Both the position numbers and the translations under genes were made by a program. Source: Desulfosarcina alkanivorans (GTDB lineage Bacteria; Desulfobacterota; Desulfobacteria; Desulfobacterales; Desulfosarcinaceae). Taken from it: a stretch of DNA of 64,000 nt. The DNA lies in assembly GCF_009688945.1 (NCBI RefSeq), contig NZ_AP021874.1, positions 2,666,001-2,730,000 of the forward strand, given 5' to 3'. Every line of letters starts with the position of its first letter. Within the stretch, counting starts at the first letter, position 1. Positions 18,148 to 35,955 of this stretch are shown here, piece by piece. A model generated the notes under the pieces. That model saw only the letters and a list, made by a program, of their open reading frames with translations, searched no databases and was not told where the DNA came from.

Positions 18148-18154
18148 AGGGATT

Positions 18155-18354
18155 GGGACCTGGTTTGTGGTTGGTTGTTTGTGGTTGGTGTTGGTGGTTT
18201 CAGTGCTCGGGGATGTGGGATATGGGTTCGGGGTTCGACATCGGCCCTCAATCCCTCAATCCCCAAATTCCTTAATTCATCCTTCGTCCCTCGCCTCTCG
18301 TCTCTGGTTGCTGGTCGCCACTCAAAGCCACAGACCAGAAACCACAAACGACAA
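18155..18354. repeat. Degenerate heptad inverted-repeat element (copy near korC-1)
   Basis: The left arm (18159-18201) is a run of 7-bp-period G/T-rich units such as GGTTTGT and GGTTGGT. The right arm (18328-18353) is A/C-rich and close to its reverse complement. Between them are further 7-bp-period pyrimidine units (TTCGTCC, CTCGCCT, CTCGTCT, CTGGTTG, CTGGTCG). The element separates msrAB from korC and is noncoding. A breakpoint of the Kor duplication lies inside it at 18305. Confidence 0.75.
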
Positions 18355-18362
18355 GCCGGGCT

Positions 18363-18905
18363 TTAACCGGCGTTCCGGCCCAGTTCCAGCCCCAGTTCCA
18401 GGGCCTGGTGGTTCATCTCCAGAAAACCCGACGGGATGCGCTGCTCCAGAACCTTCATGATCGACGCCGGCTGCACCAGGCCGGTCATCCCCACCACCGC
18501 CCCCAGCATGCAGATGTTGAACACGATCGGCTTGCCGATCCGGTCCATGACCGTCTCGTACATGGGCAGCTGACGCTGGCGGGCGTCCACCTTCAGCTGC
18601 GGCCGGACGAAACGCGTGTCCATGATCAAAAGACCTCCGGGGCGGATGATGTCGTAAAACGTGTTGTACGACTCCTGGGTCAGGCACACCAGCACGTTGG
18701 GCTGGATCACCTTGGGAAAGTTGATCTGGGTGTCAGAGATGATCACGTCGGAGCGCGTCGCGCCCCCGCGCGCCGCGGCACCGTAAGCCTGCGTCTGAAC
18801 CGCCGTCAGATCTTCGTGAAGCACCGCCGACTCGGCAAGGATGATCGCCGCCGTGATCACCCCCTGGCCGCCAGACCCCGAAAATACCATTCTGCATCGT
18901 TCCAT
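18363..18905 (-). CDS. korC: 2-oxoacid:ferredoxin oxidoreductase, gamma subunit (copy 1)
   Basis: A 180-residue gamma-type subunit with the diagnostic MVFSGSGGQGVITAA at the N-terminus, followed by AVQTQAYGAAARGGATRSDVIIS and the C-terminal NICMLGAVVGMTGLVQ. In the four-subunit 2-oxoglutarate/2-oxoisovalerate type enzymes this chain completes the CoA-dependent decarboxylase with alpha and beta. It is the last gene of korD-A-B-C; its ATG at 18905 abuts the korB stop. The protein is identical to that of copy 2 (33093-33635). Naming it Kor rests on the four-subunit layout; a Vor or Ior specificity is possible. Confidence 0.92.
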   Translation of the reverse strand: MERCRMVFSGSGGQGVITAAIILAESAVLHEDLTAVQTQAYGAAARGGATRSDVIISDTQINFPKVIQPNVLVCLTQESYNTFYDIIRPGGLLIMDTRFVRPQLKVDARQRQLPMYETVMDRIGKPIVFNICMLGAVVGMTGLVQPASIMKVLEQRIPSGFLEMNHQALELGLELGRNAG

Positions 18906-19709
18906 CTATCGTCCCCCCATGGCCCGCTCGATGATCCGGTTGTACTCGCTGCAGTACTCGGGCTTGTCCGTCTGTACGAATATACCCCGCTCGATCAGAT
19001 CCGGGTTCTCCGCCTTTTTCTTCGAGCCGATGGGCACCGTCATCTCCTTCATGCGCGTCATCATGTCCACGGCGCTGCCCAGCCGGTTCTTGCGTCCGAA
19101 GTAGGTCGGGCACTGGCTCATCACCTCCACCACCGAAAACCCCTCGTGCAGCACCGCGCTGCGGATGATGTCCGCCATCTGCTGCACGTGGTAGGTCGTG
19201 GTGCGCGCAACGAACGTCGCACCGGCCGCCCGGGCCATCTCCACCACGTCGAAACCCTGGTCGATGTTGCTGTACGGCGCCGTCGTCGCCATCATCCCCG
19301 GGCCCGTCAGCGGACTGTACTGGCCCCCGGTCATCCCGTAGATGCGGTTGTTCATCACGATGGCCGTGATGTCGATGTTGCGCCGCGCCGCGTGGATGAA
19401 GTGGTTGCCACCGATGGACAGCGCGTCCCCGTCGCCCATGGGAACGATCACGTTCAGCTCCGGCTTGCTCAGCTTCACACCCGTGGCGAACGCCAGGGCC
19501 CGACCGTGGATCGTGTGCAGGGTGTGAAAATCCATGTACCCCGAAATGCGCGACGAGCAACCGATGCCCGACACCATCACGATCTCGTTGCGGCTCATCC
19601 CCAGCCGCTCCACCGCGCGGATCAGGCCGTTGAGGACGATCCCGTGACCGCAGCCCGGACACCACAGGTGGGGAAAAAACCGCTCCCGGATATAGTCGTT
19701 GACTGCCAT
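18906..19709 (-). CDS. korB: 2-oxoacid:ferredoxin oxidoreductase, beta subunit (TPP-binding, copy 1)
   Basis: A 267-residue beta subunit. The TPP site is visible: GDGDALSIGGNHFIHAARRNIDITAIVMNN (GDG...NN motif, residues ~92-121). The Cys ligands expected for the beta-chain cluster include LWCPGCGHG near residue 17 and GIGCSSR near 49. It binds thiamine diphosphate and carries out the decarboxylation of the 2-oxoacid, passing electrons to Fe-S centres. It starts 1 bp after the korA stop and abuts korC, so the genes are translationally coupled. The protein is identical to the copy at 33636-34439. Confidence 0.95.
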   Translation of the reverse strand: MAVNDYIRERFFPHLWCPGCGHGIVLNGLIRAVERLGMSRNEIVMVSGIGCSSRISGYMDFHTLHTIHGRALAFATGVKLSKPELNVIVPMGDGDALSIGGNHFIHAARRNIDITAIVMNNRIYGMTGGQYSPLTGPGMMATTAPYSNIDQGFDVVEMARAAGATFVARTTTYHVQQMADIIRSAVLHEGFSVVEVMSQCPTYFGRKNRLGSAVDMMTRMKEMTVPIGSKKKAENPDLIERGIFVQTDKPEYCSEYNRIIERAMGGR

Positions 19710-19710
19710 C

Positions 19711-20859
19711 TTAGACCCCCTTGCCCTTGATCAGGCGAAGTATGTTCTTGATGTCCGTGGGCGTGATGAACGCGCCGTCGATTCGGTTGGCCAGAAACAC
19801 CCGCTCCGGGTGGTCCACCGTGGTCTTGACCATCTGGCACACCTGCCCCATGTTCATCTCCACCACCACCGTGGTCCTGGCCGCGTTGCAGTACTGGCGG
19901 ATGACCTCCGCCGGAAACGGCCACAGCGTCTGCAGTTCCAGAAGGCCGATCTTCTCTCCGCGCGGCCGCAGGCTCTCCACGATGTGCAGCGCACTGCGCG
20001 CTGACGAACCGAACGACACCAGCACCGTCTCCGCGTCCTCCAGGTAAAACGTCTTGTAGCGCGCCATCTGGGCCGCGTTGTTCTCGATCTTGTCCACCAG
20101 GTGACGCAGCAGCCCGTGAACGATCTTGGGGTTGTCCGACGGAAACCCCCACATGTCGTGCACCAGACCGGTCACGTTGTAGCGGTGAACCCCGCCGAAG
20201 TCGCTCATGGGCAGCCGCCCGTCTTCGCGCGGCAGGTAGGGATGGTAGTCCACCCCCCCCTTGACCGCCGTGCGCAGCCGCTCCACCAGCGGGATCTCCC
20301 CCGGCTCCGGGATCTCAAGCCGCTCGCGCATGTGGCCGACCACCTCGTCGAACAGCAGCACCACCGGCGTGCGGAAGGTCTCGGCGATGTTGAAGGCCTC
20401 GACCGTCATGGCGAACACGTCCTGGTGGTTCGACGCCGTCAGCGCAACGATGCTGTGGTCCCCGTGGGTCCCCCAGCGCGCCTGCATCACGTCTCCCTGG
20501 CTCACGTGGGTCGGCACCCCCGTCGACGGACCCCCGCGCTGGACGTTCACGATCACGCACGGAATCTCCGCCATCACCGCGTAACCCAGCGCCTCCTGCT
20601 TGAGCGAAAACCCAGGCCCCGACGTGGCCGTCAGCACCTTGTGCCCGGTCAAAGACGCGCCGATGACCGCGCACATGGAGGCGATCTCGTCCTCCATCTG
20701 GATGAACTTGCCGCCGATCTGCGGCAGCCGTTTCGATAAATGCTCGGCAATCTCCGTCGACGGCGTGATCGGGTAGCCGGCGAAAAAATCCAGCCCCGCG
20801 TAAAGCGCCCCTTCCACGCAGGCCTGGTTGCCCTGGATGAATTTAATCTGTCTGGTCAT
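19711..20859 (-). CDS. korA: 2-oxoacid:ferredoxin oxidoreductase, alpha subunit (copy 1)
   Basis: A 382-residue alpha subunit from the ATG at 20859, the start shared with the second copy; a longer frame to 20928 runs into the diverged spacer and is not conserved. Motifs: GNQACVEGALYAGLDFFAGYPITPSTEI (alpha-chain signature), MEDEIASMCAVIGASLTGHKVLTATSGPG, and QRGGPSTGVPT. The chain contains the pyrimidine-binding and transketolase C-like domains of the enzyme that converts 2-oxoacid plus CoA to acyl-CoA, CO2 and reduced ferredoxin. The length and QRGGPSTG motif are typical of the 2-oxoglutarate type. Identical in protein sequence to copy 2. Confidence 0.95.
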   Translation of the reverse strand: MTRQIKFIQGNQACVEGALYAGLDFFAGYPITPSTEIAEHLSKRLPQIGGKFIQMEDEIASMCAVIGASLTGHKVLTATSGPGFSLKQEALGYAVMAEIPCVIVNVQRGGPSTGVPTHVSQGDVMQARWGTHGDHSIVALTASNHQDVFAMTVEAFNIAETFRTPVVLLFDEVVGHMRERLEIPEPGEIPLVERLRTAVKGGVDYHPYLPREDGRLPMSDFGGVHRYNVTGLVHDMWGFPSDNPKIVHGLLRHLVDKIENNAAQMARYKTFYLEDAETVLVSFGSSARSALHIVESLRPRGEKIGLLELQTLWPFPAEVIRQYCNAARTTVVVEMNMGQVCQMVKTTVDHPERVFLANRIDGAFITPTDIKNILRLIKGKGV

Positions 20860-20930
20860 GGCTTTGCCTTTACACTCCGTTATTGTCTGGTTTCTCTGTA
20901 CTGACCGGAAACCATCTTTATCCATCACCC

Positions 20931-21031
20931 GAATTCAGGAGGCCGAATCCAGAATTCAGAAGGAAAGGATGTCGCCTTCGGCGGCACCGATTTATTCTGA
21001 CTTCTGACTCCCGGCTTCTGGCTTCTGATCC
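20931..21031. repeat. Heptad inverted-repeat element between korD and korA (copy 1)
   Basis: The left arm (20931-20965) reads GAATTCA, GGAGGCC, GAATCCA, GAATTCA. The right arm (20995-21031) reads TTCTGAC, TTCTGAC, TCCCGGC, TTCTGGC and TTCTGAT, roughly the reverse complement. The right arm overlaps the 3' end of korD and encodes its last residues. The same element is at 35652-35752. Confidence 0.8.
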
Positions 21032-21231
21032 GCCACCGTCACCTCGATGGCCAGGTCCGGGCAGCGCAGTTCGCACAGCCGGCAGGCGATGCAGTCCTCA
21101 ATACGCACCGCCACCGCCTTGTCCTGAGCGTCCAGTTCCAGTACCGACTTCGGGCAGAACGCCACGCAGATCCCGCAGCCCTTGCACCAGTCCCGGTTGA
21201 TCCGGTGTTCCTTCAACTTTGTTTTTGGCAT
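20992..21231 (-). CDS. korD: 2-oxoacid:ferredoxin oxidoreductase, ferredoxin subunit (delta, copy 1)
   Basis: A 79-residue 2x[4Fe-4S] ferredoxin with CKGCGICVAFCP and CIACRLCELRCP, preceded by the KorD-typical HRINRDWCKGCGIC. It accepts electrons from the alpha/beta core. First gene of the operon. The last ~13 residues (ADQKPEAGSQKSE) are encoded by the right arm of a 7-bp-period repeat element, so the tail is repeat-derived rather than part of the ferredoxin fold. Sequence identity with the second copy ends 3 bp upstream of the ATG, so the two operons have different promoters. Confidence 0.94.
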   Translation of the reverse strand: MPKTKLKEHRINRDWCKGCGICVAFCPKSVLELDAQDKAVAVRIEDCIACRLCELRCPDLAIEVTVADQKPEAGSQKSE

Positions 21232-21302
21232 GTTACCTGTGATTCCTTATTCTTTTCCAAACAGCGGGTTTCATATTCTCCGGCACATAAACATAAAGCC
21301 GC

Positions 21303-21983
21303 TTACCGCTTTTTAAGCTTCTGGTAATAGGAGTGGACCGTATAGACCGCCGCAAGGGGATTGTGGCCGGTTACCCGGTCTTTGGCGGCCAGTACGGTGC
21401 TGAAGGCCTCGGCTCTTTTGAGAAACATGGCGTCGTGCCCCACACAAAGGCCGAGCACTACGTTCAGATCAGTCTCTTCCCGATTCAATATTTCGGCCTG
21501 AAGCAAAGGGTTGCACATGGTTTCATAGCTCCCGACGTTCACTTTTTCAGCATCGGTGAGCCCGATCGCCTCCTTGGCGATACCGCCGCAATTGCAGGAA
21601 ACGGAAGCCAGTACAAATCCTTGAGATTCAAATATGTCAGCGACGAGGCCCGCTTCCTTTTGCAGTCCTCCGCAAAAGGCGAGCCCCAGCTTGCGGCAGC
21701 CGAGCTTTTTGGCAAACTCGACGGTTTCCTGAATTCGAGACTTGGTCGGCTGAAGAACATAGGGCCCCGGATTGCGGTTGGCGTAGCATTCGGCTTCCTG
21801 GATCGAGGCCATTCGTGCGAATTCGGCAACTGCCGGATAATGGTAGCTATCGAGAATTTTCTCTGCGAGTTCACGATAGTTGACGGTAGGACAAAATTCT
21901 GGATGACGACCGCCGGATTCCCTTTTACATATTTTTTCGTTATTGGGGATACGGCATCTTGCGCAATGGGCTCTGCTTTCCAT
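21303..21983 (-). CDS. DUF1847 cysteine-rich metal-binding protein
   Basis: A 226-residue protein. The N-terminal Cys pattern (CARCRI...C...FCP) resembles a small metal-binding ribbon. Inside are LGLAFCGGLQKEAGLVADIFESQGF, SVSCNCGGIAKE and MCNPLLQAEILNREETDLNVVLGLCVGHDAMFLKRAEA, hallmarks of the DUF1847 family seen in anaerobes. The Cys residues in CGG, CNCGG, MCNP and GLCVGHD suggest metal or Fe-S binding. Biochemical function is unknown. The gene lies 71 bp upstream of korD copy 1 on the same strand and may share its transcript. Confidence 0.86.
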   Translation of the reverse strand: MESRAHCARCRIPNNEKICKRESGGRHPEFCPTVNYRELAEKILDSYHYPAVAEFARMASIQEAECYANRNPGPYVLQPTKSRIQETVEFAKKLGCRKLGLAFCGGLQKEAGLVADIFESQGFVLASVSCNCGGIAKEAIGLTDAEKVNVGSYETMCNPLLQAEILNREETDLNVVLGLCVGHDAMFLKRAEAFSTVLAAKDRVTGHNPLAAVYTVHSYYQKLKKR

Positions 21984-22050
21984 TACAGCTCCTGTTCGAA
22001 AAAGAATTTAGTGTTCCGCCTGTTTTTAGGTCATCTATTTCCATTATGGT

Positions 22051-23331
22051 TCAATCGCCCATCCTGCTCTCCTCGCTGAAAAAGGAGATGCAGACCAGAA
22101 GAAAAACGCTTGTAATCAGAAAAAAAACCAGGGCCGGCGTGTATGCCTCGGGCGGATAGGCGCCACCCGTTTTTCCGGTCCTGTCCATAATCCATCCCGT
22201 CAGCGGCTGGTAAACGGCGGCGCTTAAAAATGCGAAAAAGTTGACGCTTCCCACCGCTGTGCCGGCCATCCAACCGGGAAAAAGCTCTTTGGCTGCGGCA
22301 AAGGCGACCACCGCCACCCCGTTGCCGAAAATCCCGAACAGAAAAAACAGCGGAAAGAGGGCTGCGTATGACAGGCGGGTCCTGAACGAAAAGATCAGGA
22401 TCCAGAGAATGACCTGCACCAGGGAGGCGAACCAGACCACCGTCTTTCTTCGACGTACCATCCGGTCCGAGATGCGGCCCAGCAAAGGGCCGCCGGCGAT
22501 GGTACCCAAAGCGATCATGGCCAGAATGTTTCCGGTTTCGGATTTGGAAAGACCGCAGACATCCATCAGGAAAGGACCCGCCCACAACCCGCAGAACCCG
22601 AAGAGGATGCCACCGAAAAAGAAAAACCAGCCGGCCAGCGGCCAGAATCGGCCGGTGGACAACACGACCCCCAGACCGGTCCATACCCCGGGTCGACGGT
22701 CGACTGAATTCACCTTGCCGGCGTCCACCGATCCCGGTGGTGGTTCCGGCACCACCAGCCAGGTGGCCACGGCCAACAGGATCGTCAGGCTGCCGATGCC
22801 GGCAAAAGTCCCCCGCCATCCGAAGAAAGCCGTCATCCATGTCAGGGGGGTGGCGGCAACAAACCAACCGACGCCGCCCATGGCCAACAGCAACCCGGAT
22901 ACCGCCGCGTACTCCTTGGGATTGAACAGACCGGCGCAAACCCGCATGGCCGGCACGAAAACAGCGGAAAGACCGAGGCCGACCAGGATCCGGGCAGCCG
23001 TGGCCACATGGAAATTGGGTGCCAGTCCAAAGAGAATCGCTCCGGCGGCACCCAGGGTCGAAAACAGCGCAATGGTTTTGCGGGCGCCCCAGCTGTCCGC
23101 CAGCACCCCCACCGGCAGCTGCATCAGGGCGTAGGGATAGAAATAGCCAGAGGAAAGCAGGCCCAGGGAAGCCCCGCTGATGGAAAAAGCCGACACCAGC
23201 TCCCGGGTCATGAGTGCCGGAGAGACCCGGTGGAAGTAGACCAGCAGGTACTGGAGCGACAGGATCGCAAAGACCGCCCACCGATATCCGGTTTGCCCCG
23301 TGGCCCTGGCCAGCGGTTGCGAAAAAGCCAT
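22051..23331 (-). CDS. MFS transporter
   Basis: 426 residues from the ATG at 23331, which has a G-rich ribosome site (GAGGGGGGGACAGT) 17 bp past the stop of the upstream gene; the frame is open to 23379. About twelve membrane segments. The motif-A loop GVLADSWGARKTI lies between helices 2 and 3 and a GRISDRMVRRRKT loop lies in the second half. Arg in YFHRVSPALM of helix 1 is typical of the anion:cation symporter-like group. It is next to an FAD/Fe-S oxidoreductase unit, so it may import or export the organic acid that unit handles. Substrate is inference. Confidence 0.9.
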   Translation of the reverse strand: MAFSQPLARATGQTGYRWAVFAILSLQYLLVYFHRVSPALMTRELVSAFSISGASLGLLSSGYFYPYALMQLPVGVLADSWGARKTIALFSTLGAAGAILFGLAPNFHVATAARILVGLGLSAVFVPAMRVCAGLFNPKEYAAVSGLLLAMGGVGWFVAATPLTWMTAFFGWRGTFAGIGSLTILLAVATWLVVPEPPPGSVDAGKVNSVDRRPGVWTGLGVVLSTGRFWPLAGWFFFFGGILFGFCGLWAGPFLMDVCGLSKSETGNILAMIALGTIAGGPLLGRISDRMVRRRKTVVWFASLVQVILWILIFSFRTRLSYAALFPLFFLFGIFGNGVAVVAFAAAKELFPGWMAGTAVGSVNFFAFLSAAVYQPLTGWIMDRTGKTGGAYPPEAYTPALVFFLITSVFLLVCISFFSEESRMGD

Positions 23332-23348
23332 ACTGTCCCCCCCTCCCG

Positions 23349-24365
23349 CTACCATTTTGAGGACGGCGCGGCGAAACACCGGTGCAGGAGTTCTCCCATG
23401 TCCCAGACCCGGATGCTCAGGTCCTTCTCATGCTTCATCAGGTTGATGAGGCAGATGGGGCATGCCACCAGAACGTCACGGCATCGCCCGGCCAGCTCTC
23501 TGGCCCGGATGCATGAGATCGACCGGCTCAGATCCGCGTAGGCATATTCGACCGGCCCGCCGCAGCAGGCGGTGTTGACGCGATTGTTTTCGGGTTCGAC
23601 CACCTCGACGCCCATCCGGGACAAAACGGTCCGGGCAGGCTCCACGACACCCAGGTCCCGGGTCATCACACACGAGTCGTGCAGGACGATTCTTTCCGGA
23701 ATCCCGTCCGGCCTGATTGCTGGAAAGATGGTTTCGGTTTGTGCAAGTACTTCCAGGTAATGGCGAACGTTCAGGTTGAAGCCCGGAATATAGCGGGGGT
23801 ATATCTTTCGAAGCATGAAGGTGGTGTGGGGATCGACCGTCACAACCGTCTGGCTTCCGGATGCGTTGAGCGTCCGGTATACCTCTCGGGCGATGGGGAC
23901 GACCGCCTCTTCCAGCCCCAGGTCGTATAACAGGACCCCGCTGTAAAGCTCGTTCTCATGGAGGTAAGCCGGCGGCGTACCGGCCCTTTTCAGGGCGGCA
24001 ACAATGCCCTTGAGGGCGGATTCGGACCGTTCCCGGACATCTCCCTCGCGCCGGGCGCCCAGGCGGATAATGGGATCGGCGGCTATGGCACCGGCCATCT
24101 CGGCCATTTTCGCGAACGCCTTGACCGACAGCATCGGTAGCAGCGGCTGTGCGGCCGCTGCCATTTCCGTGGTCTGAACCACGTAGGGAAGCATCTGGTA
24201 CATCCGGGCCGTATAGAGCAGCGCCGCGCCGCGAGCCGGCAGACCCAGCCCGCCGGCCCACCGCGTCCAGTACGCATTTTTCAAGCCCAGCGGATCCCCG
24301 GTCCGTTCCAGGTTGCCGCGGATGGTGTTCAGGGCCTGTGAAATCAAGACCTTAGAGTTTCGCAT
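23349..24365 (-). CDS. CCG-domain Fe-S oxidoreductase subunit (HdrD/GlpC-like)
   Basis: 338 residues. The ATG at 24365 follows AGGGAGGAAAAC and overlaps the end of the upstream Fe-S gene by 14 bp. One clear CCG (cysteine-rich) domain lies in the C-terminal half: HDSC, then ACCGGPVEY, then VACPICLINL, the motif that holds a noncubane cluster in heterodisulfide reductase and in GlpC/LldE-type proteins. The N-terminal half has no canonical second CCG. Together with the ferredoxin-like protein and the FAD oxidase upstream it should form a membrane-associated 2-hydroxyacid dehydrogenase that passes electrons to quinone or another carrier. Confidence 0.88.
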   Translation of the reverse strand: MRNSKVLISQALNTIRGNLERTGDPLGLKNAYWTRWAGGLGLPARGAALLYTARMYQMLPYVVQTTEMAAAAQPLLPMLSVKAFAKMAEMAGAIAADPIIRLGARREGDVRERSESALKGIVAALKRAGTPPAYLHENELYSGVLLYDLGLEEAVVPIAREVYRTLNASGSQTVVTVDPHTTFMLRKIYPRYIPGFNLNVRHYLEVLAQTETIFPAIRPDGIPERIVLHDSCVMTRDLGVVEPARTVLSRMGVEVVEPENNRVNTACCGGPVEYAYADLSRSISCIRARELAGRCRDVLVACPICLINLMKHEKDLSIRVWDMGELLHRCFAAPSSKW

Positions 24366-24693
24366 GTTTTCCTCCCTGAACCAACCGATCCGAAAGCAGA
24401 CGGCGGCCACGCTGGATCAGTTCACAGATATCCAGATTCTGTCCCTTGCTCTTGCAAACAACCTCACAGCGGCGGCATTGCAGGCAGCTGTAAAGGCAGT
24501 ATGTCAGCGCATCGTCCAATTCAAGCACGCCGTTGAGCAGGTGTTTTACAATTTGCATGCGTCCGTACGAGGAAAAGCTCTCGACGCCCCCGAAGGCCTG
24601 GTAGGTGGGGCAGACATCCACGCAAAACCTGCACGAACGGCATTTGGCCAGTTCCTGAAGAAGCAGTTCCTGTTCCCTGTCGTCTCTGTTCAC
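24352..24693 (-). CDS. 4Fe-4S dicluster protein (HdrC/GlpC N-terminal-like)
   Basis: A 113-residue all-helical ferredoxin-type protein with two clusters: CRSCRFCVDVCP near residue 18 and CLQCRRCEVVCK near 70. This is the N-terminal module of GlcF/GlpC proteins as a separate chain; the CCG module is the next gene. The GTG start overlaps the FAD-oxidase stop by 4 bp (GTGA), which implies translational coupling. It would relay electrons from the flavin subunit to the CCG subunit. Confidence 0.9.
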   Translation of the reverse strand: MNRDDREQELLLQELAKCRSCRFCVDVCPTYQAFGGVESFSSYGRMQIVKHLLNGVLELDDALTYCLYSCLQCRRCEVVCKSKGQNLDICELIQRGRRLLSDRLVQGGKHAKL

Positions 24694-26102: not shown

Positions 26103-26114
26103 TGGTTTCTCCTC

Positions 26115-26804
26115 TTATTCATATGGCTTTTCCGTTTTTTTACCCGCATAAACCGTAAAATTGTGGTGCTTGAAAAAACAATCCACGTCCGCGAAACCGG
26201 CCGCTCTCATCCAGGCAAGTTGATGATCCAAAGTGGCGGGCCGGTCGCAGGCCATCCGCTGATAGATCGCGTCAAGTGCTTCTTTCTCGATGTCGGTTGA
26301 GCCCAGGTGCCGGCGCCAAAAGGACTGATAAAGCGCTTCCGTGGCCGGCGTTGCGCCCAATGCCAGCTCGGCATGGATAAAATACCCGCCGGGGGTCAGC
26401 CTCTCGAAGACCCTCTGCACCAACCGCTGTTTTTCCGAATCGGACAAATGATGGACCGACATGGCCGAAACGATCAGCGGGTGTGGGCCGGGCAGTTCTT
26501 CACGGGCGTAGTCCCGGACGTAAAAATCCACGCCTGTTTCCCCGGAAAACCGTTCCCGGGCCAGGGTCAGCATCTTTTCGGAATTATCGAGAAGGTGCGC
26601 CTCGGCCCTGGTGAACCGTTCCCGGATCAGCGCGGAAACCAGACCGGTTCCGGCACCCAGGTCAAGAAAGGAAAACCGGTCCGCCGGTGCGAAGGGAATC
26701 AAATCCAACAGGGTTCCGTAGAAGTCGTCAAAGCAGTAGATGACCTTTCGTCGGTTGCCGTCGTATTTCCGGGCCCCGGCGTCGAAAAGTTCTTTTACCG
26801 TCAT
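26115..26804 (-). CDS. SAM-dependent class I methyltransferase
   Basis: 229 residues from the ATG at 26804 (AGGTG upstream); an ATG three codons earlier is possible. The Rossmann SAM site is FLDLGAGTGLVSALI with the acidic residue in LLDNSEKML. A post-I acidic motif sits in VRDYARE, and motif IV-like IVSAMSVHHLSDSEKQ follows, as in the methyltransferase_25/UbiE-like group. Soluble. It is 12 bp upstream of the FAD oxidase in the same operon. Its role there is unclear; it could act on the imported substrate or be an incidental member. Confidence 0.9.
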   Translation of the reverse strand: MTVKELFDAGARKYDGNRRKVIYCFDDFYGTLLDLIPFAPADRFSFLDLGAGTGLVSALIRERFTRAEAHLLDNSEKMLTLARERFSGETGVDFYVRDYAREELPGPHPLIVSAMSVHHLSDSEKQRLVQRVFERLTPGGYFIHAELALGATPATEALYQSFWRRHLGSTDIEKEALDAIYQRMACDRPATLDHQLAWMRAAGFADVDCFFKHHNFTVYAGKKTEKPYE

Positions 26805-28216: not shown

Positions 28217-28370
28217 GTCGTCTCCGTCATTTTCCATTCGGGGGGAAGCATCCGGCATTCAACGGGCACCCCCCGGACATCGTCCGTGGGCCTGCCGCGA
28301 GGGCCTCTCCTTTTCTGAACGTACGGCCCCATCGGGGTATCAAAACAAGTCATGATCCCATTTCTCACGG

Positions 28371-30272
28371 TCAGGTGGCCTGCTGCCGGTGGATCAGACC
28401 GATGGTAAACCGTTTGACCAGATCGGGAACCCGAATGCAAAGGATCACGATGACGAGAGCCAGTCCTGCGATGTCCGAATAAAGGCCGGGATAAATGAGG
28501 CATCCGCCGCCGATGAACAGCAGCGACCGGAGAAGGATGGTCAGCCGGCCCCCAAGATAGTTCTGGGCGGCGCAGGCCAGGGCGAGCACCCCAAAAAAGG
28601 AGGTGATGCACACCTGGACAATCTGTCCGCTGTTGCCGATCAACAGCAAGGCGTTGTTGTAGACAAACATGTAGGGCACAATGAAGATGACCAGGGCCAG
28701 ACGGCAGGCCGTGAACGAAGTGCGCATCATGGGTGCGTCTGCGATCCCGGCGGCCACGAAGGCGTCCGGCGCCATGGGCGGCGTGATGCCTGCGATGGTG
28801 GCGAAATAGAAGACGAAGAGATGGGCTGCCAGCGGGTAAACCCCGAGCTTGATCAGGGCCGGCACCACAAGAATGGACAGCACGATATAGGCGGCTACGG
28901 GCGGTACACCCATGCCGAGGATAATCGAGGCGACCATCGTCAAAAGCAGCAGCAGCAGCAGGTTGCCACCGGACATTTTGATCAGCAGGCCCGACATCAT
29001 CAGTCCCAGACCGGTCAGGGTGATCATGCCCAGTACGACGCCGCCCAATGACAGGATGGCAACGACAGGCAGCGCCGTGAGGGCGCCCTGTTCGAGGCCG
29101 TCGAAAAACTGGCGGATGGTCATCCGCCGGCCGGGGCCGGCCAACTGGCTGCACAGGGGGATGGAAACGGCGCCCCAGAAAGCCGCCCGGGTCACCGAGA
29201 CCTTGGAGTATACCAGAAAGAAAATCAGGACGAAAATCGGGATGAAGAAAAACCAGCCTTCTTTGAGCGTCTGCTTCAAGCTGGGGAGTTCCTCCCTGGG
29301 CATACCGGCCATGTCCAGTTTCTGGGCTTCAATGTCGATCATCAGAAACAGCCCGACATAGTATAGTATGGCTGCCAGGCCCCCGGCTTTCATGATGGTG
29401 ACGTAGTTGACGCCCAGAACCTCCATGATAATGAAGACGGCGCTGCCCATGATCGGCGGCATGAGCAGGCCGCCGGCACTGGAAACCGTTTCCACGGCGG
29501 CAGCGAAATGGGGCTTGTAGCCGCTGCGCTTCATCAGCGGGATCGTGATCTGGCCGGTGCCCGCCACGTTGGCCGTGCCGCTGCCCGAAAGCATTCCGAA
29601 CAGGGATGAGGCCACCACGGCGATTTTTGCAGGACCGCCGCGTACGTGCCCGAAAAGGGCGAAAGAGAGATTGATGAAAAATTCACCACCACCGGCGGCC
29701 CGCAGAAGCGCGCCAAAGAGAATGAACAGGAAGATGTACGTTGCAGAGATTCCGGCCAGCATTCCAAAAACGCCGTCGGTGGTGATGAACATGTTGCTGA
29801 CGATACGCTCGAAGGAGTAGTTGCGATGGGCTATAAAACCGGGCAGCATTTCGCCGAAGCGGGCGTACATCATCGCCGCCACGGCGATCACCGGAAAAAT
29901 CCAACCCAGTGTCCTGCGGGCGGCTTCGATGCACATCAGCAGAAAAACGGTCCCCATGGCCAGTTCGTACCAGGGAGGACACATGCCGCATTCGCCGATT
30001 TTCTTGAACCAGTTGCACAACACATATATTCCCATCAAAAGGACAGCGCCCGCCATCAGGTATCCATGCCAGGCAATACGCAGTTTCTTCTTTTGATCGA
30101 AACCGTAGGCCAGAAAAATCAACACCAGGGCGAAGGTCACATGAATGACCCGCTGGTTCATGGCGGTCAGTTGAAAGATGCCCGTATAAAGCTGAAAAAG
30201 GCTCATGGCAATGGCAATGACGCGGATGAGAAGTGGGGGGTGTACTGCGGGCGGTGCGGTTTGGTTCTCCAT
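28371..30272 (-). CDS. TRAP transporter fused permease (4TM/12TM, DctQM type)
   Basis: A 633-residue inner-membrane protein with about 16-17 hydrophobic segments. The first ~170 residues are the small DctQ-like part. The rest is the DctM-like large subunit, with GALLRAAGGGEFFINLSFALFGHVRGGPAKIAVVASSLFGMLSGSGTANVAGTG and GMGVPPVAAYIVLSILVVPAL, which are hallmarks of fused TAXI-TRAP permeases. It uses a Na+ or H+ gradient to import a carboxylate delivered by the TAXI protein encoded at 30519-31514. Downstream on the transcript is MmgE/PrpD, 154 bp away. Confidence 0.95.
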   Translation of the reverse strand: MENQTAPPAVHPPLLIRVIAIAMSLFQLYTGIFQLTAMNQRVIHVTFALVLIFLAYGFDQKKKLRIAWHGYLMAGAVLLMGIYVLCNWFKKIGECGMCPPWYELAMGTVFLLMCIEAARRTLGWIFPVIAVAAMMYARFGEMLPGFIAHRNYSFERIVSNMFITTDGVFGMLAGISATYIFLFILFGALLRAAGGGEFFINLSFALFGHVRGGPAKIAVVASSLFGMLSGSGTANVAGTGQITIPLMKRSGYKPHFAAAVETVSSAGGLLMPPIMGSAVFIIMEVLGVNYVTIMKAGGLAAILYYVGLFLMIDIEAQKLDMAGMPREELPSLKQTLKEGWFFFIPIFVLIFFLVYSKVSVTRAAFWGAVSIPLCSQLAGPGRRMTIRQFFDGLEQGALTALPVVAILSLGGVVLGMITLTGLGLMMSGLLIKMSGGNLLLLLLLTMVASIILGMGVPPVAAYIVLSILVVPALIKLGVYPLAAHLFVFYFATIAGITPPMAPDAFVAAGIADAPMMRTSFTACRLALVIFIVPYMFVYNNALLLIGNSGQIVQVCITSFFGVLALACAAQNYLGGRLTILLRSLLFIGGGCLIYPGLYSDIAGLALVIVILCIRVPDLVKRFTIGLIHRQQAT

Positions 30273-30518
30273 GATTGACCCCGTTTTTTCCGATTATTCG
30301 CTACGCTTCAGGTGGGCGGCCACCCATCTGCCCGACGGCGGACCCGACCTATGGTGCTTTCCGTATGGCGTTTTGCGGACGATACGCTGCGATGTCTCCG
30401 GCTGTGGGAGCGGCCGCTTCGACGGGCCCCTCCCGATCCGTTCCAAAGTGCTTCCAAGGCCTGTGGACAGGGCGTGGCGGACGTGCAGGCAAGTGCTGAC
30501 GCTGCACGTCCATTCCGG

Positions 30519-31514
30519 TTATTCGTAATGCTCTGACCGATGATCCCAGATGCCCTTCTCCTTGTAATACCTGACCGCTCCCGGATGGTAACCGACGGGA
30601 ACACCGGGAGATCCGCGGAAGGCGTTTTCCGGTGTATACATCTTGGCCATGGGATGGATGGCATCCCTGTCCCCCGGATGGTCATAAACCGCCTTGATGA
30701 TATTGTAGACCAGGTCCTCCGGCAAATCGGTCCGACAGATCCACATCTGCGGCAGGCAATAGGTGTGGATATCCTGGTCGATGCCATTGTAGGTGCCTGC
30801 CGATATGGTCAGCGGTACGACATTGCTGAACTGGCTGCGCAGCCCTTGGAGCATATCGGGCTTGATGTCCAGAATCCGGATCGGGATGTCCCGGGCCAGT
30901 TCCATAACGGACGCCAGGGGTGAACCGGCGAAAATCAGGCCGGCGTCGATGGTCTGGTCCCGGAGGCCTCGGGTCACTTCCGAAAAAGAGATGTATTTCG
31001 GAGAGAAGTCGTCGAAGGACAGATCCCAGCCGTTCTTCAGGTGCTTTTTCGATACCACGTTGAGGGTGGCGCTTCCGGCCGGACCGACACCGATCACCTT
31101 CCCCCTGAAATCGGCGATGGACTCGATCTTGGATTCCTTGCGTACGATCCAGTGCACATCGCTGGTATGGCCGATGGCGATCAACCGGATCTTATCGACA
31201 TCCAGGCCCTGCTCCTTGATGCCATTGAGGGTGCCCATGCAGGCCAGCCCCATTTCCATTTCCCCCCGGATCATCAAACGGGCATTTTCGTTGGAAGCGG
31301 CCGTGGATTCCGCAGCCACACGAACATTGGGGACATGGTTGTTGATCAATGAAGCGAAGCCGGCCCCCAGGAAATAATAGGTTCCCGCCGGGCTCCCGGT
31401 CCCGAAAGAGATAAATTCGATGGCTGATGCCGGCGGCGCGGCCACGACAAGAAGTGCGATTAATGAGACGCTGCTGAATTTCATGAACCGGATTAAAAAG
31501 CCTTTTACAGACAT
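30519..31514 (-). CDS. TAXI family TRAP substrate-binding protein
   Basis: 331 residues. The ATG at 31514 follows AGGAGGGCATT and opens a signal peptide (MSVKGFLIRFMKFSSVSLIALLVV... PASA); the frame is open to 31613. The mature protein begins IEFISFGTGSPAGTYYFLGAGFASLIN, the TAXI signature, and has ESTAASNENARLMIRGEMEMGLA and GKVIGVGPAGSATLNV. It acts as the periplasmic receptor for the fused permease downstream. TAXI ligands include glutamate, 2-oxoglutarate and other carboxylates, in line with the catabolic genes around it. A 246-bp gap separates it from the permease gene. Confidence 0.95.
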   Translation of the reverse strand: MSVKGFLIRFMKFSSVSLIALLVVAAPPASAIEFISFGTGSPAGTYYFLGAGFASLINNHVPNVRVAAESTAASNENARLMIRGEMEMGLACMGTLNGIKEQGLDVDKIRLIAIGHTSDVHWIVRKESKIESIADFRGKVIGVGPAGSATLNVVSKKHLKNGWDLSFDDFSPKYISFSEVTRGLRDQTIDAGLIFAGSPLASVMELARDIPIRILDIKPDMLQGLRSQFSNVVPLTISAGTYNGIDQDIHTYCLPQMWICRTDLPEDLVYNIIKAVYDHPGDRDAIHPMAKMYTPENAFRGSPGVPVGYHPGAVRYYKEKGIWDHRSEHYE

Positions 31515-31545
31515 AATGCCCTCCTTTAGAATCCTTCGAATGGGG

Positions 31546-31965
31546 TTAGCCAAGCTCTTTGACCAAAATCGTGAAACCACTGGGCAACTGATTGTAGAGC
31601 ATCGGAAACTCACGCGTGTGCTCCTCTCCGGCCGGCACCCCGGTCACATCGCCCTTGACCTTGCGGGGATACAACCCGCCCGCCGATGTACCGTCCGGCA
31701 GGAAAATATTGACGCGAAACCGCTTGGTTTCAGACGACATGTTTTTCACCGAAAGGGCCATGTGCAGACGGTCGGTGCCCTTGTATGGCTTGATGCAATA
31801 AGCGATCTTTGTAATTTCCGCCGAAGGGGCGATCTCATAATTGATATTCTGGGCGAAAGCATCTTCCTTGACCTCAACCGCCGTGGTGGCGCATCCGCAA
31901 AAACCAAAGATCACCATCGCCAACAAGACGCTTCCCATAAATCCAATCCGACTCAGCCTGGGCAT
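31546..31965 (-). CDS. Predicted lipoprotein of unknown function
   Basis: A 139-residue protein with a lipoprotein signal (MPRLSRIGFMGSVLLAMVIFGFCGC, lipobox Cys25). The mature part has beta-sandwich character (MALSVKNMSSETKRFRVNIFLPDGTS), loosely like the YcfL/DUF1425 group, with no catalytic motif. It sits between the GntR gene and the TAXI gene, all on the minus strand; its stop is 31 bp from the TAXI start. It could be an accessory of the transporter, but nothing proves it. Confidence 0.78.
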   Translation of the reverse strand: MPRLSRIGFMGSVLLAMVIFGFCGCATTAVEVKEDAFAQNINYEIAPSAEITKIAYCIKPYKGTDRLHMALSVKNMSSETKRFRVNIFLPDGTSAGGLYPRKVKGDVTGVPAGEEHTREFPMLYNQLPSGFTILVKELG

Positions 31966-32086
31966 AACATTCTCCTTTTCTGTGGTGGGGTTGTTTTGGT
32001 TGTGTCCTTGTATTCTGAAAATGGAAGATTATTCGGGGGATCGTTTCGAGTTTTCTCACCGTGGATGATTTTTGGTGGATACGTTC

Positions 32087-32860
32087 TTAACCTCCGAAGT
32101 GGTTCTCCTGCCGTATTCGGCGGTCGATTTCCTGCACCTGGTCTGCAGGCATGACCCGGGCGTATGCCTGGTAGGTAGCCAGCAGATGCCTGCGCGTCAT
32201 TTCATAGGCCTCGGCCGAATTGCGTTTAATGATGGCATCGAGGATTTCCCGGTGCCCCTGGATGAACTTCTGGATTACCTGGCGTTTGAGCCGGGTTCGG
32301 GTCAACTCGATGATTGTGGCGGAATAGGATTGGGTGATCGATTCCGTGATGAAGATGATAATCGGGTTTTTGGTGATTTTGGCGACTTCGCAGTGAAAAG
32401 AAACATTCGTCAACCGGGCGTCTTTGCGCGAGTTGGGAATTTGAGATTCGGCCCGGTCCAAAAGCTGCCGCAGCCGGTCAATATCGTCGTCACTGCGGTA
32501 CTTCGCGGCAATTTCCGACGCCCGCGGTTCGATATAGAGGCGCGCATCGATCAGGTGCGAAAAACCAATGTGCCCCATGTGAATGAGGTTGCGAAAATTT
32601 TCGGTGATCGGATCCGAATTGGGTTCCGACACGTATGCACCGGCATATACGCCTCTTCGTATTTCGATCAGGCCGGCGCTTTGCAGGTTCCTCAGAGCCT
32701 CACGGATGGTGACCCGGCTCACCTGGAACTGGTCCACCAGTTCCCTCTCCGAAGGCAGCTTCTCACCGGGTTTAAAGGTTGCATCCGCAATGGAGGATTG
32801 GATCGCGTTTTTCACTTCCTGGGAAAGCAACGGTTTTTTCAGGGACTTGTAGCCTGCCAT
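32087..32860 (-). CDS. FadR-type GntR transcription regulator (FCD domain)
   Basis: 257 residues. The GntR winged helix spans ~10-80: GEKLPSERELVDQFQVSRVTIREALRNLQSAGLIEIRRG. The FCD ligand-binding domain spans ~105-235 and carries helices with EPRASEIAAKYRSDDD, FHCEVAKITKNPIIIF and HREILDAIIKRNSAEAYEMTRRHL, including His residues that bind a metal in the family. FCD regulators sense carboxylic acids or acyl-CoAs. Being the first gene of the minus-strand island, it is the likely controller of the lipoprotein, TAXI-TRAP and oxidoreductase genes. Confidence 0.94.
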   Translation of the reverse strand: MAGYKSLKKPLLSQEVKNAIQSSIADATFKPGEKLPSERELVDQFQVSRVTIREALRNLQSAGLIEIRRGVYAGAYVSEPNSDPITENFRNLIHMGHIGFSHLIDARLYIEPRASEIAAKYRSDDDIDRLRQLLDRAESQIPNSRKDARLTNVSFHCEVAKITKNPIIIFITESITQSYSATIIELTRTRLKRQVIQKFIQGHREILDAIIKRNSAEAYEMTRRHLLATYQAYARVMPADQVQEIDRRIRQENHFGG

Positions 32861-32992
32861 GTCGACGTCCTTTCCAGTGGGTCGATGGTGTCAACGACTA
32901 ATGTCTGTCGTTCGACGTCTGTTGTCATACCACTATAGGAACCGCATTCCGATGTCAAACCTTTTCCGAAAAAGGGGTTGAAGGAAAGCGGT

Positions 32993-33083
32993 CGGTCTGT
33001 GGTCTGTGTTTCCTGGTCTCTGGTTGCGGGTTTGTGGTTGCTGGTCGCCACTCAAAGCCACAGACCAGAAACCACAAACGACA
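32993..33083. repeat. Degenerate heptad inverted-repeat element (copy near korC-2)
   Basis: The left arm (32993-33043) has 7-bp-period G/T-rich units (GGTCTGT, GGTCTCT and GGTTTGT-like). The right arm (33058-33083) is A/C-rich and near-complementary. From 33035 onward it is identical to the element at 18305-18354, while the left arm differs in sequence but keeps the same heptad style. Confidence 0.75.
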
Positions 33084-33092
33084 AGCCGGGCT

Positions 33093-33635
33093 TTAACCGG
33101 CGTTCCGGCCCAGTTCCAGCCCCAGTTCCAGGGCCTGGTGGTTCATCTCCAGAAAACCCGACGGGATGCGCTGCTCCAGAACCTTCATGATCGACGCCGG
33201 CTGCACCAGGCCGGTCATCCCCACCACCGCCCCCAGCATGCAGATGTTGAACACGATCGGCTTGCCGATCCGGTCCATGACCGTCTCGTACATGGGCAGC
33301 TGACGCTGGCGGGCGTCCACCTTCAGCTGCGGCCGGACGAAACGCGTGTCCATGATCAAAAGACCTCCGGGGCGGATGATGTCGTAAAACGTGTTGTACG
33401 ACTCCTGGGTCAGGCACACCAGCACGTTGGGCTGGATCACCTTGGGAAAGTTGATCTGGGTGTCAGAGATGATCACGTCGGAGCGCGTCGCACCCCCGCG
33501 CGCCGCGGCACCGTAAGCCTGCGTCTGAACCGCCGTCAGATCTTCGTGAAGCACCGCCGACTCGGCAAGGATGATCGCCGCCGTGATCACCCCCTGGCCG
33601 CCAGACCCCGAAAACACCATTCTGCATCGTTCCAT
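33093..33635 (-). CDS. korC: 2-oxoacid:ferredoxin oxidoreductase, gamma subunit (copy 2)
   Basis: A 180-residue protein identical to that at 18363-18905, with the same SGSGGQGVITAA motif. Two silent base differences separate the genes (33492 and 33615). Last gene of the second korDABC unit. It ends about 230 bp before the GntR regulator gene of the catabolic island, with a heptad repeat element between. Confidence 0.92.
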   Translation of the reverse strand: MERCRMVFSGSGGQGVITAAIILAESAVLHEDLTAVQTQAYGAAARGGATRSDVIISDTQINFPKVIQPNVLVCLTQESYNTFYDIIRPGGLLIMDTRFVRPQLKVDARQRQLPMYETVMDRIGKPIVFNICMLGAVVGMTGLVQPASIMKVLEQRIPSGFLEMNHQALELGLELGRNAG

Positions 33636-34439
33636 CTATCGTCCCCCCATGGCCCGCTCGATGATCCGGTTGTACTCGCTGCAGTACTCGGGCTTGTCCG
33701 TCTGTACGAATATACCCCGCTCGATCAGATCCGGGTTCTCCGCCTTTTTCTTCGAGCCGATGGGCACCGTCATCTCCTTCATGCGCGTCATCATGTCCAC
33801 GGCGCTGCCCAGCCGGTTCTTGCGTCCGAAGTAGGTCGGGCACTGGCTCATCACCTCCACCACCGAAAACCCCTCGTGCAGCACCGCGCTGCGGATGATG
33901 TCCGCCATCTGCTGCACGTGGTAGGTCGTGGTGCGCGCAACGAACGTCGCACCGGCCGCCCGGGCCATCTCCACCACGTCGAAACCCTGGTCGATGTTGC
34001 TGTACGGCGCCGTCGTCGCCATCATCCCCGGGCCCGTCAGCGGACTGTACTGGCCCCCGGTCATCCCGTAGATGCGGTTGTTCATCACGATGGCCGTGAT
34101 GTCGATGTTGCGCCGCGCCGCGTGGATGAAGTGGTTGCCACCGATGGACAGCGCGTCCCCGTCGCCCATGGGAACGATCACGTTCAGCTCCGGCTTGCTC
34201 AGCTTCACACCCGTGGCGAACGCCAGGGCCCGACCGTGGATCGTGTGCAGGGTGTGAAAATCCATGTACCCCGAAATGCGCGACGAGCAACCGATGCCCG
34301 ACACCATCACGATCTCGTTGCGGCTCATCCCCAGCCGCTCCACCGCGCGGATCAGGCCGTTGAGGACGATCCCGTGACCGCAGCCCGGACACCACAGGTG
34401 GGGAAAAAACCGCTCCCGGATATAGTCGTTGACTGCCAT
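33636..34439 (-). CDS. korB: 2-oxoacid:ferredoxin oxidoreductase, beta subunit (copy 2)
   Basis: A 267-residue TPP-binding subunit identical at protein and, as far as I could see, nucleotide level to the copy at 18906-19709. The GDGD...NN thiamine motif and the WCPGCGHG cysteine motif are both present. Its start is 1 bp after the korA stop and its stop abuts korC, the same coupled layout as copy 1. Confidence 0.95.
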   Translation of the reverse strand: MAVNDYIRERFFPHLWCPGCGHGIVLNGLIRAVERLGMSRNEIVMVSGIGCSSRISGYMDFHTLHTIHGRALAFATGVKLSKPELNVIVPMGDGDALSIGGNHFIHAARRNIDITAIVMNNRIYGMTGGQYSPLTGPGMMATTAPYSNIDQGFDVVEMARAAGATFVARTTTYHVQQMADIIRSAVLHEGFSVVEVMSQCPTYFGRKNRLGSAVDMMTRMKEMTVPIGSKKKAENPDLIERGIFVQTDKPEYCSEYNRIIERAMGGR

Positions 34440-34440
34440 C

Positions 34441-35589
34441 TTAGACCCCCTTGCCCTTGATCAGGCGAAGTATGTTCTTGATGTCCGTGGGCGTGATGAA
34501 CGCGCCGTCGATTCGGTTGGCCAGAAACACCCGCTCCGGGTGGTCCACCGTGGTCTTGACCATCTGGCACACCTGCCCCATGTTCATCTCCACCACCACC
34601 GTGGTCCTGGCCGCGTTGCAGTACTGGCGGATGACCTCCGCCGGAAACGGCCACAGCGTCTGCAGTTCCAGAAGGCCGATCTTCTCTCCGCGCGGCCGGA
34701 GGCTCTCCACGATGTGCAGCGCACTGCGCGCTGACGAACCGAACGACACCAGCACCGTCTCCGCGTCCTCCAGGTAAAACGTCTTGTAGCGCGCCATCTG
34801 GGCCGCGTTGTTCTCGATCTTGTCCACCAGGTGACGCAGCAGCCCGTGAACGATCTTGGGGTTGTCCGACGGAAACCCCCACATGTCGTGCACCAGCCCG
34901 GTCACGTTGTAGCGGTGAACCCCGCCGAAGTCGCTCATGGGCAGCCGCCCGTCTTCGCGCGGCAGGTAGGGATGGTAGTCCACCCCCCCCTTGACCGCCG
35001 TGCGCAGCCGCTCCACCAGCGGGATCTCCCCCGGCTCCGGGATCTCAAGCCGCTCGCGCATGTGGCCCACCACCTCGTCGAACAGCAGCACCACCGGCGT
35101 GCGGAAGGTCTCGGCGATGTTGAAGGCCTCGACCGTCATGGCGAACACGTCCTGGTGGTTCGACGCCGTCAGCGCAACGATGCTGTGGTCCCCGTGGGTC
35201 CCCCAGCGCGCCTGCATCACGTCACCCTGGCTCACGTGGGTCGGCACCCCCGTCGACGGACCCCCGCGCTGGACGTTCACGATCACGCACGGAATCTCCG
35301 CCATCACCGCGTACCCCAGCGCCTCCTGCTTGAGCGAAAACCCAGGCCCCGACGTGGCCGTCAGCACCTTGTGCCCGGTCAAAGACGCGCCGATGACCGC
35401 GCACATGGAGGCGATCTCGTCCTCCATCTGGATGAACTTGCCGCCGATCTGCGGCAGCCGTTTCGATAAATGCTCGGCAATCTCCGTCGACGGCGTGATC
35501 GGGTAGCCGGCGAAAAAATCCAGCCCCGCGTAAAGCGCCCCTTCCACGCAGGCCTGGTTGCCCTGGATGAATTTAATCTGTCTGGTCAT
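34441..35589 (-). CDS. korA: 2-oxoacid:ferredoxin oxidoreductase, alpha subunit (copy 2)
   Basis: A 382-residue protein identical to the alpha chain at 19711-20859; five silent substitutions distinguish the genes. The spacer before it, toward korD, has diverged from copy 1, yet the region around the start codon (GGCAAAGCC before the ATG) is kept. This shows which start codon is real and that the ribosome site lies within the conserved block. Confidence 0.95.
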   Translation of the reverse strand: MTRQIKFIQGNQACVEGALYAGLDFFAGYPITPSTEIAEHLSKRLPQIGGKFIQMEDEIASMCAVIGASLTGHKVLTATSGPGFSLKQEALGYAVMAEIPCVIVNVQRGGPSTGVPTHVSQGDVMQARWGTHGDHSIVALTASNHQDVFAMTVEAFNIAETFRTPVVLLFDEVVGHMRERLEIPEPGEIPLVERLRTAVKGGVDYHPYLPREDGRLPMSDFGGVHRYNVTGLVHDMWGFPSDNPKIVHGLLRHLVDKIENNAAQMARYKTFYLEDAETVLVSFGSSARSALHIVESLRPRGEKIGLLELQTLWPFPAEVIRQYCNAARTTVVVEMNMGQVCQMVKTTVDHPERVFLANRIDGAFITPTDIKNILRLIKGKGV

Positions 35590-35651
35590 GGCTTTGCCTC
35601 TGTTGCCTGGTTTCTCAGTAATGTCTGGTAAACCGTTGGTTTGCAGTGCCT

Positions 35652-35752
35652 GAATTCAGGAGGCCGAATCCAGAATTCAGAAGGAAAGGATGTCGCCTTC
35701 GGCGGCACCGATTTATTCTGACTTCTGACTCCCGGCTTCTGGCTTCTGATCC
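35652..35752. repeat. Heptad inverted-repeat element between korD and korA (copy 2)
   Basis: Base-for-base the same as 20931-21031, including the noncoding left arm and loop. The right arm again encodes the tail of KorD. The spacer next to it (35600-35651) is diverged, so the element is conserved better than its noncoding neighbour. Confidence 0.8.
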
Positions 35753-35952
35753 GCCACCGTCACCTCGATGGCCAGGTCCGGGCAGCGCAGTTCGCACAGC
35801 CGGCAGGCGATGCAGTCCTCAATACGCACCGCCACCGCCTTGTCCTGAGCGTCCAGTTCCAGTACCGACTTCGGGCAGAACGCCACGCAGATCCCGCAGC
35901 CCTTGCACCAGTCCCGGTTGATCCGGTGTTCCTTCAACTTTGTTTTTGGCAT
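35713..35952 (-). CDS. korD: 2-oxoacid:ferredoxin oxidoreductase, ferredoxin subunit (copy 2)
   Basis: A 79-residue 2x[4Fe-4S] ferredoxin identical in DNA and protein to the copy at 20992-21231, repeat-derived C-terminal tail included. The start at 35952 is the one shared by both copies; a frame to 36030 lies in unrelated sequence. The upstream region (35956-36268) is not homologous to that of copy 1, so this operon has its own promoter. Confidence 0.94.
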   Translation of the reverse strand: MPKTKLKEHRINRDWCKGCGICVAFCPKSVLELDAQDKAVAVRIEDCIACRLCELRCPDLAIEVTVADQKPEAGSQKSE

Positions 35953-35955
35953 GTG

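Follow-up and report, generated by a model that had tools for sequence, protein, structure and literature searches.

Near-identical korDABC copies at three loci of Desulfosarcina alkanivorans and their apparent maintenance by recombination

The genome of Desulfosarcina alkanivorans (G000) carries at three loci a korDABC module, which encodes a 2-oxoacid:ferredoxin oxidoreductase with 2-oxoglutarate as the probable substrate. Recombination among the copies (gene conversion) appears to keep them uniform, a reading given a probability of roughly 85%. Two of the copies, termed W1 and W2, lie in the window, the 64,000-bp stretch of DNA that was analysed (positions 2666001-2730000 of one single contig of 7,324,708 bp) and to which all coordinates refer unless stated otherwise. 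The third copy lies at genome position 7075344-7078230 of the same contig, ~4.4 Mb away from the window pair. When the window was compared with itself by BLAST, 33035-35954 aligned with 18305-21233 at 98.8% identity over 2930 columns, bearing out the two near-identical blocks reported in a preliminary description of this DNA, and the only other repeats at the same threshold were two pairs of 113-128 columns with 76-77% identity. The two window copies are composed of the following parts.

18305..18362, minus strand: 58-bp tail after korC of W1, in a period-7 array; the same in both window copies and absent from the third copy
18363..18905, minus strand: korC of W1 (PF01558)
18906..19709, minus strand: korB of W1 (PF02775; 2-oxoglutarate:ferredoxin oxidoreductase beta model below cut-off)
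19711..20859, minus strand: korA of W1 (NF006412, 527 bits against a cut-off of 411)
20860..20991, minus strand: korD-korA spacer of W1, its korA-proximal part forming the diverged island
20992..21231, minus strand: korD of W1, its tail encoded by TTCTGAC-type heptads
33035..33092, minus strand: 58-bp tail of W2, identical to the W1 tail
33093..33635, minus strand: korC of W2
33636..34439, minus strand: korB of W2
34441..35589, minus strand: korA of W2
35590..35712, minus strand: korD-korA spacer of W2, equal to the third copy in 122 of 123 bases
35713..35952, minus strand: korD of W2

W1 and W2 differ at five codons of korA, none of korB and two of korC, every one synonymously, and their KorA, KorB, KorC and KorD proteins are identical. 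The silent-only divergence claimed earlier thus holds between these two copies but not against the third, which differs from both by KorD Gly18Cys and at KorC codons 177, 178 and 180. The 303 bases that comprise korD and an adjoining element are equal in the two copies (20931-21233 and 35652-35954). This element had been described as a base-identical noncoding repeat; it is base-identical but noncoding only in part, as the TTCTGAC-type heptads at 20995-21028 and 35716-35749 sit in the korD frame (20992-21231 in W1) and encode the KorD C-terminal tail. In the korD-korA spacer the half next to korA has diverged, as had also been described; over 71 columns there are 16 mismatches and 11 gap positions, and this island is flanked by near-identity (0-1 differences in 302 bases and 5 in 1149 bases). 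The limits of the duplication likewise fall where they had been placed: identity ends 2-3 bp upstream of the korD start and, on the korC side, within an imperfect period-7 array in both copies, where self-match at lag 7 is 0.58 and 0.55 at the two boundaries compared with 0.24-0.37 at all further lags tried apart from 14, itself twice 7.

Thirteen genomes of the genus were searched, D. alkanivorans included, four of them assembled in one or two contigs and nine being drafts; paralogues of ~45-52% identity were left out of the copy counts. The one- or two-contig genomes hold three (G000), one (G001), three (G004) and two (G006) copies, with near-identity between multiple copies in three of the four. 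Drafts G010, G011 and G012 have one copy each, korA of G007 is broken in the assembly and no kor match was present at E 1e-100 in drafts G002, G003, G005, G008 and G009, these draft counts being lower bounds because near-identical copies may collapse.

Two types of corresponding locus were found across species. At locus B, shared by G000, G001, G004 and G006, korDABC is followed by a HemW-like gene, an arrangement displayed by the third G000 copy, the G006b and G004a copies, the G001 copy and the copies of drafts G010, G011 and G012. The HemW-like gene of G006 has radical SAM and HemN_C domains, and a hemW match lies at most 6 kb after kor in 21 of 62 related loci (those with korC and more than 4 kb past the korA start). 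At locus A, shared by G000 (W1), G006 (G006a) and G004 (G004b), korDABC closes a catabolic operon, termed operon A, with the gene order GntR, small protein, TAXI, TRAP, MmgE/PrpD, methyltransferase-like, GlcD-like, Fe-S, CCG, MFS, DUF1847, korDABC, and kor directly follows DUF1847 in all three genomes. G004 and G006 have the same chromosomal place for locus A, continuous through the kor end with 89.6% identity over 9.6 kb. A further G004 copy (L056) starts in an overlap with the end of a hutI-like amidohydrolase frame, whose imidazolonepropionase-specific domain match is below cut-off, and is followed by a glutamate-dehydrogenase-family frame without its N-terminal part.

Sequence similarity among these copies follows the genome rather than the locus. 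The kor blocks are 97.7-99.8% identical within genomes (three copies in G000, two in G006, three in G004), while the korABC piece is 84.7-92.8% identical between genomes. Synonymous divergence (dS), computed on korA, korB and the first 175 korC codons, is 0.007-0.012 within G000, 0.003 within G006 and 0.010-0.030 within G004, against 0.52-0.57 between G000 and either G004 or G006 and 0.23-0.24 between G004 and G006. For the G000-G006 pair, the ten operon-A neighbour genes gave a dS of 0.27-1.52 and five other genes 0.76-1.19, a sixth gene, aspartokinase, having been dropped as misframed (50% identity). The phylogenetic tree gathers the kor copies of each genome in a clade with 100/100 support, and topologies uniting the copies by locus were rejected by the approximately unbiased test (p-AU 1.0e-6 for the three locus-A copies, 4.7e-77 for G004A with G006A and 2.3e-9 for G004B with G006B). 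Paralogues are thus closer than between-genome orthologues by identity, dS and trees, and the grouping of each copy with a different species, which the preliminary description had named as an outcome contrary to its proposal, did not occur. Homogenisation extends beyond the coding sites. The korD-korA spacer is equal at 213 of 213 positions among the three G004 copies, at 128 of 128 in the two G006 copies and at 122 of 123 between W2 and the third copy, whereas between G000, G004 and G006 it is only 41-55% alike. The homogenised block reaches from the korD start codon to the last korC codons, and its flanks vary by locus. Taken together, these comparisons argue for concerted evolution of the korDABC copies, most simply by gene conversion. 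The earlier proposal that gene conversion keeps the blocks alike is thereby supported from three one- or two-contig genomes at corresponding loci, spacer included. The diverged W1 island between near-identical stretches has the pattern expected from separate conversion tracts. For G004 and G006 the kor dS (0.23-0.24) is not raised like that of operon A (0.41-1.60); kor therefore follows the genome, not the operon. Outside the genus, homogenisation between kor copies was not seen in the two genomes G020 and G017, whose paired copies are 72.9% (2463 columns) and 81.9% alike (1597 columns, where contigs end), respectively.

Several observations weigh against this interpretation. The W1 spacer is only 80% like that of W2 and thus forms an exception to the homogenised spacers, the G004 and G006 spacers have their korA-proximal part in common, and identity between G004 and G006 reaches 96.9% in a separate, shorter korD piece. 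Over korA, korB and the first 175 codons of korC, eight codons vary among the three G000 copies, each with a variant carried by a single copy, and conversion tracts are therefore not mappable in the coding part. The kor dS of G000-G006 (0.52-0.53) amounts to about half the value for the five other genes, which could result from codon bias or from exchange between species. Similarly, the operon-A dS of G004-G006 exceeds that of the five other genes (0.21-0.48), and the operon itself may have been exchanged. Operon A also occupies different chromosomal places. In G004 and G006 it stands between an aspartokinase-like gene and a Usp gene, with a very long frame, labelled polyketide-synthase-like by eye, next after Usp. 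In G000 the aspartokinase and Usp genes are ~2 kb apart and the sole DUF1847 match is that of the window; G000 therefore has no operon A at the aspartokinase-Usp site, and the correspondence of its locus A rests on operon content and not on position. Operon A has thus undergone relocation or exchange. A 428-codon frame lies between Usp and aspartokinase in G000, and frames stand at the same place in G001, G011 and G012. The DUF1847 dS of G000-G006 is only 0.27, against 0.88-1.52 for the other nine operon-A genes (0.49 for DUF1847 of G004-G006), perhaps through local exchange.

The ends of W2 point to two different sources. Upstream of its korD lies a promoter-like element with counterparts before kor in six other genomes, the best being in G011 (84% over 57 columns, E 5.7e-11) and the weakest in G012 (70% over 47 columns, E 0.004). 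A promoter consensus scanner listed none at 36022-36077, and the promoter role of the element is therefore argued from its conservation. With the third copy W2 shares the 11 bases preceding korD and nearly the whole spacer, and with W1 the end of korC and the 58-bp tail. The third copy keeps hemW but not the W2-type upstream element, of which only a 13-base match beside the start codon is present; ahead of it are a LarA-like gene and a gene for a fused FAD/Fe-S 2-hydroxyacid-dehydrogenase-like protein, neither of which reaches its NCBIfam cut-off. By its sequence, W2 is a hybrid with a promoter and head of the kor-hemW type and a tail of the catabolic-operon type, and the simplest reading is that it arose by recombination inside kor between B-type and A-type copies. 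The suggestion that one enzyme is placed under two controls is supported at the level of sequence, in that W1 ends a GntR-headed operon, W2 follows a genus-conserved promoter-like element and the third copy stands behind other genes; each copy is presumably under separate control.

W1, operon A, W2 and the W2 upstream region together make up a block of 18,121 bp, with kor at each end, that separates two genes adjacent in all five relatives in which both could be read (G011 was left out of this count, as its contig ends beside the gene). The gap between these neighbours is ~11-16 bp in G004, G006 and G012. The block, its flanks and the remaining features are given below.

17029..18147, plus strand: msrAB, left flank of the insertion (PF01625, PF01641; synteny)
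18148..36268, no strand: block separating msrAB from the phosphoglycerate-mutase-like gene, which are adjacent in G001, G004, G006, G007 and G012
21303..21983, minus strand: DUF1847 gene, last before kor in operon A (PF08901)
22051..23379, minus strand: MFS transporter (PF07690)
23349..24374, minus strand: cysteine-rich (CCG) domain protein (PF02754)
24352..24693, minus strand: small 4Fe-4S protein (PF13183)
24690..26102, minus strand: GlcD-like FAD-linked 2-hydroxyacid dehydrogenase (PF01565, PF02913; TIGR00387 below cut-off)
26115..26813, minus strand: methyltransferase-like protein (NCBIfam matches below cut-off)
26840..28258, minus strand: MmgE/PrpD family protein (PF03972, PF19305)
28371..30272, minus strand: TRAP transporter fused permease (TIGR02123 above cut-off)
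30519..31520, minus strand: TAXI family solute-binding protein (TIGR02122 above cut-off)
31546..31965, minus strand: small protein, lipoprotein-like by eye (no Pfam family; conserved in G004 and G006)
32087..32860, minus strand: GntR/FCD regulator, first gene of operon A (PF00392, PF07729)
32900..32959, minus strand: candidate promoter/operator preceding the GntR gene; contains a TTGACA element and a TAGTGGTATGACANCAGACGTC block shared by G000, G004 and G006
36022..36077, minus strand: promoter-like element TTGACA-17 bp-TATGAG of W2; a similar element stands before kor in G001, G004 locus B, G006 locus B, G007, G011 and G012
36269..36973, minus strand: phosphoglycerate-mutase-like gene of the histidine phosphatase superfamily, right flank (PF00300)

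No dispersed repeat was recognised at the right junction, as 36070-36268 has just one further match in the genome, of 31 bases at 88%. A composite transposon was considered and rejected: there is no transposase among the assigned genes, 10 of the 11 operon-A genes having a Pfam or NCBIfam assignment and one small protein being without Pfam family, with small open reading frames inspected by eye only.

In the explanation that best accommodates these features, one copy, the third, stands at the kor-hemW locus common to the genus. W1 closes a catabolic operon headed by GntR, as kor also does in two other species, and W2 is a recombinant in which a head of the former type is joined to a tail of the latter, the two copies and the operon between them forming the inserted block. 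With separate control of each copy, several substrate-specific operons would be supplied with the same downstream enzyme. A wider proposal, put forward tentatively, is that korDABC serves as a portable terminal module at which operons dock by recombination, such that substrate-specific operons yielding 2-oxoglutarate are gained or moved through homologous recombination at kor and the kor of the newcomer is then overwritten by the host version; the 18.1-kb block might then be a snapshot of such an integration.

A related but rather doubtful alternative is that operon A travels ending in kor, recombines with a resident kor and becomes host-like largely at entry. The different placement of the operon in G000 and in G004/G006 fits such an integration, as does the presence of its DUF1847 gene at more than 90% identity in three of the ten genus genomes searched for it, G000 included, and the direct-repeat kor copies with differing heads and tails that flank the G000 operon are what a single crossover would leave. 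However, locus A of G004 and of G006 holds a single kor instead of a flanking pair, the A and B copies of either genome resemble each other despite a between-species dS of 0.23-0.24, which implies homogenisation after the split, and a plain single crossover does not predict that the W1 and W2 tails share their first 58 bases. Integration may have operated in G000 alongside later conversion in G004 and G006, and is thus not fully exclusive of maintenance by conversion.

That each species instead copied its own kor lately, leaving no need to homogenise old copies, is unlikely. G001 has a single near-identical copy, and W2 and the hut-linked G004 copy are at places that other genomes do not share; for these two, recent duplication is the likely origin. 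As a general account, however, it would require repeated insertion at the same spot, since DUF1847 directly precedes kor in G000, G004 and G006 and the flanks of the G004 and G006 copies are continuous, and the diverged W1 spacer island is unfit for a uniform recent copy. An assembly artefact is very improbable: near-identical 2.9-kb repeats are prone to misassembly, but the sequence is a single 7.3-Mb contig in which each copy has its own flanks and private differences, and two more genomes assembled in one or two contigs likewise hold several copies. Purifying or codon selection alone, to which the lack of amino-acid differences between W1 and W2 and the comparatively low between-species kor dS might be ascribed, is scarcely tenable, since synonymous sites and the noncoding spacer too are alike within genomes and different between them; selection on the protein is rejected as the cause because the noncoding spacer is also homogenised.

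The alpha, beta, gamma and ferredoxin-like delta subunits of the enzyme are encoded in one operon, a subunit set and domain composition that are the same as in OorDABC/KorDABC, with solved relatives 8ys5 and 6n2n. KorA scores above the cut-off of NF006412, a general 2-oxoacid:acceptor oxidoreductase model, whereas KorA and KorB fall below the cut-offs of the 2-oxoglutarate-named NCBIfam models. The best solved match of KorB is 8ys5_C (249.6 bits), named as a 2-oxoglutarate enzyme; that of KorA is 1yd7 (353 bits), a 2-keto acid enzyme without stated 2-oxoglutarate specificity, followed by 8ys5_A (267 bits). The functions encoded upstream of the various copies, namely 2-hydroxyacid oxidation, TAXI/TRAP uptake and probably histidine breakdown, suggest that several substrates feed into kor as a common next step. 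In 7 of 80 related loci, a relative of the isocitrate/isopropylmalate dehydrogenase family is encoded no more than 7 kb upstream of kor. At one of the related loci (L204, G017:C138) kor is directly behind a PF00180 gene of this family and genes that by eye resemble those of a tripartite tricarboxylate transporter. KorD residue 18, between ferredoxin cysteines, is altered in one copy each of two genomes, from Gly to Cys in the third G000 copy and to Arg in G006a, where the other copy has Gly.

The usual fate of duplicated metabolic genes is divergence or loss. Here a multi-subunit enzyme recurs behind several operons, each time with its own upstream region, and is uniform in sequence within each species. 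Concerted evolution of operons is already known in bacteria, and kor is a new case. The amoCAB, haoAB and cycAB operons of Nitrosomonadales evolve in concert through what was attributed, from synteny and trees, to gene conversion (PMC6053082). Wang and Chen list 26 prokaryotic genes with long-lasting concerted evolution, amoCAB, haoAB and tuf among them, 22 of the 26 belonging to protein complexes (PMC6053082). The kor copies display the same evolutionary pattern as tuf and the other listed genes, and resemble amoCAB/haoAB/cycAB in that several near-identical copies of a metabolic operon are present per genome with paralogues closer than orthologues. They differ in that synteny is conserved in eight species there, whereas kor stands behind operons varying by species, in three genomes and with one head-tail hybrid. 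The class of long-lasting recurrent concerted evolution calls for at least five species (PMC6053082), and this stricter class is not claimed for kor. Subunits of 2-oxoacid:ferredoxin oxidoreductases are absent from both tables of that article, and 'ferredoxin' has 0 occurrences in its main text (PMC6053082). No report of concerted evolution of a kor enzyme was found in the literature searched, most subscription papers being outside its coverage. This case is unusual in that the module is scattered behind unrelated operons and that a hybrid copy borders the inserted operon; newly described is the splitting of the msrAB and phosphoglycerate-mutase-like neighbours by an 18.1-kb, kor-flanked, GntR-headed operon. 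The system is open to tests of how new copies originate, of the limits of conversion (korD start codon to last korC codons) and of the part played by homology in the movement of catabolic operons.

Within 17000-37500, none of 4227 Rfam families reached its gathering score. The TTCTGAC heptads at 20995-21028, here inside the korD frame, are similar by eye to the consensus MTYCTGA of the class 3 heptanucleotide repeats of Geobacter metallireducens, which are listed as predicted regulator sites (PMC2700814). With a strict threshold, a heptad scan of the window picked out 3657-3799 alone and passed over the imperfect kor arrays, and the frequency of heptads is not to be read from it. The most regular 7-bp-period array found in the window, at 3668-3785, consists of ~17 tandem TCATAGG heptamers.

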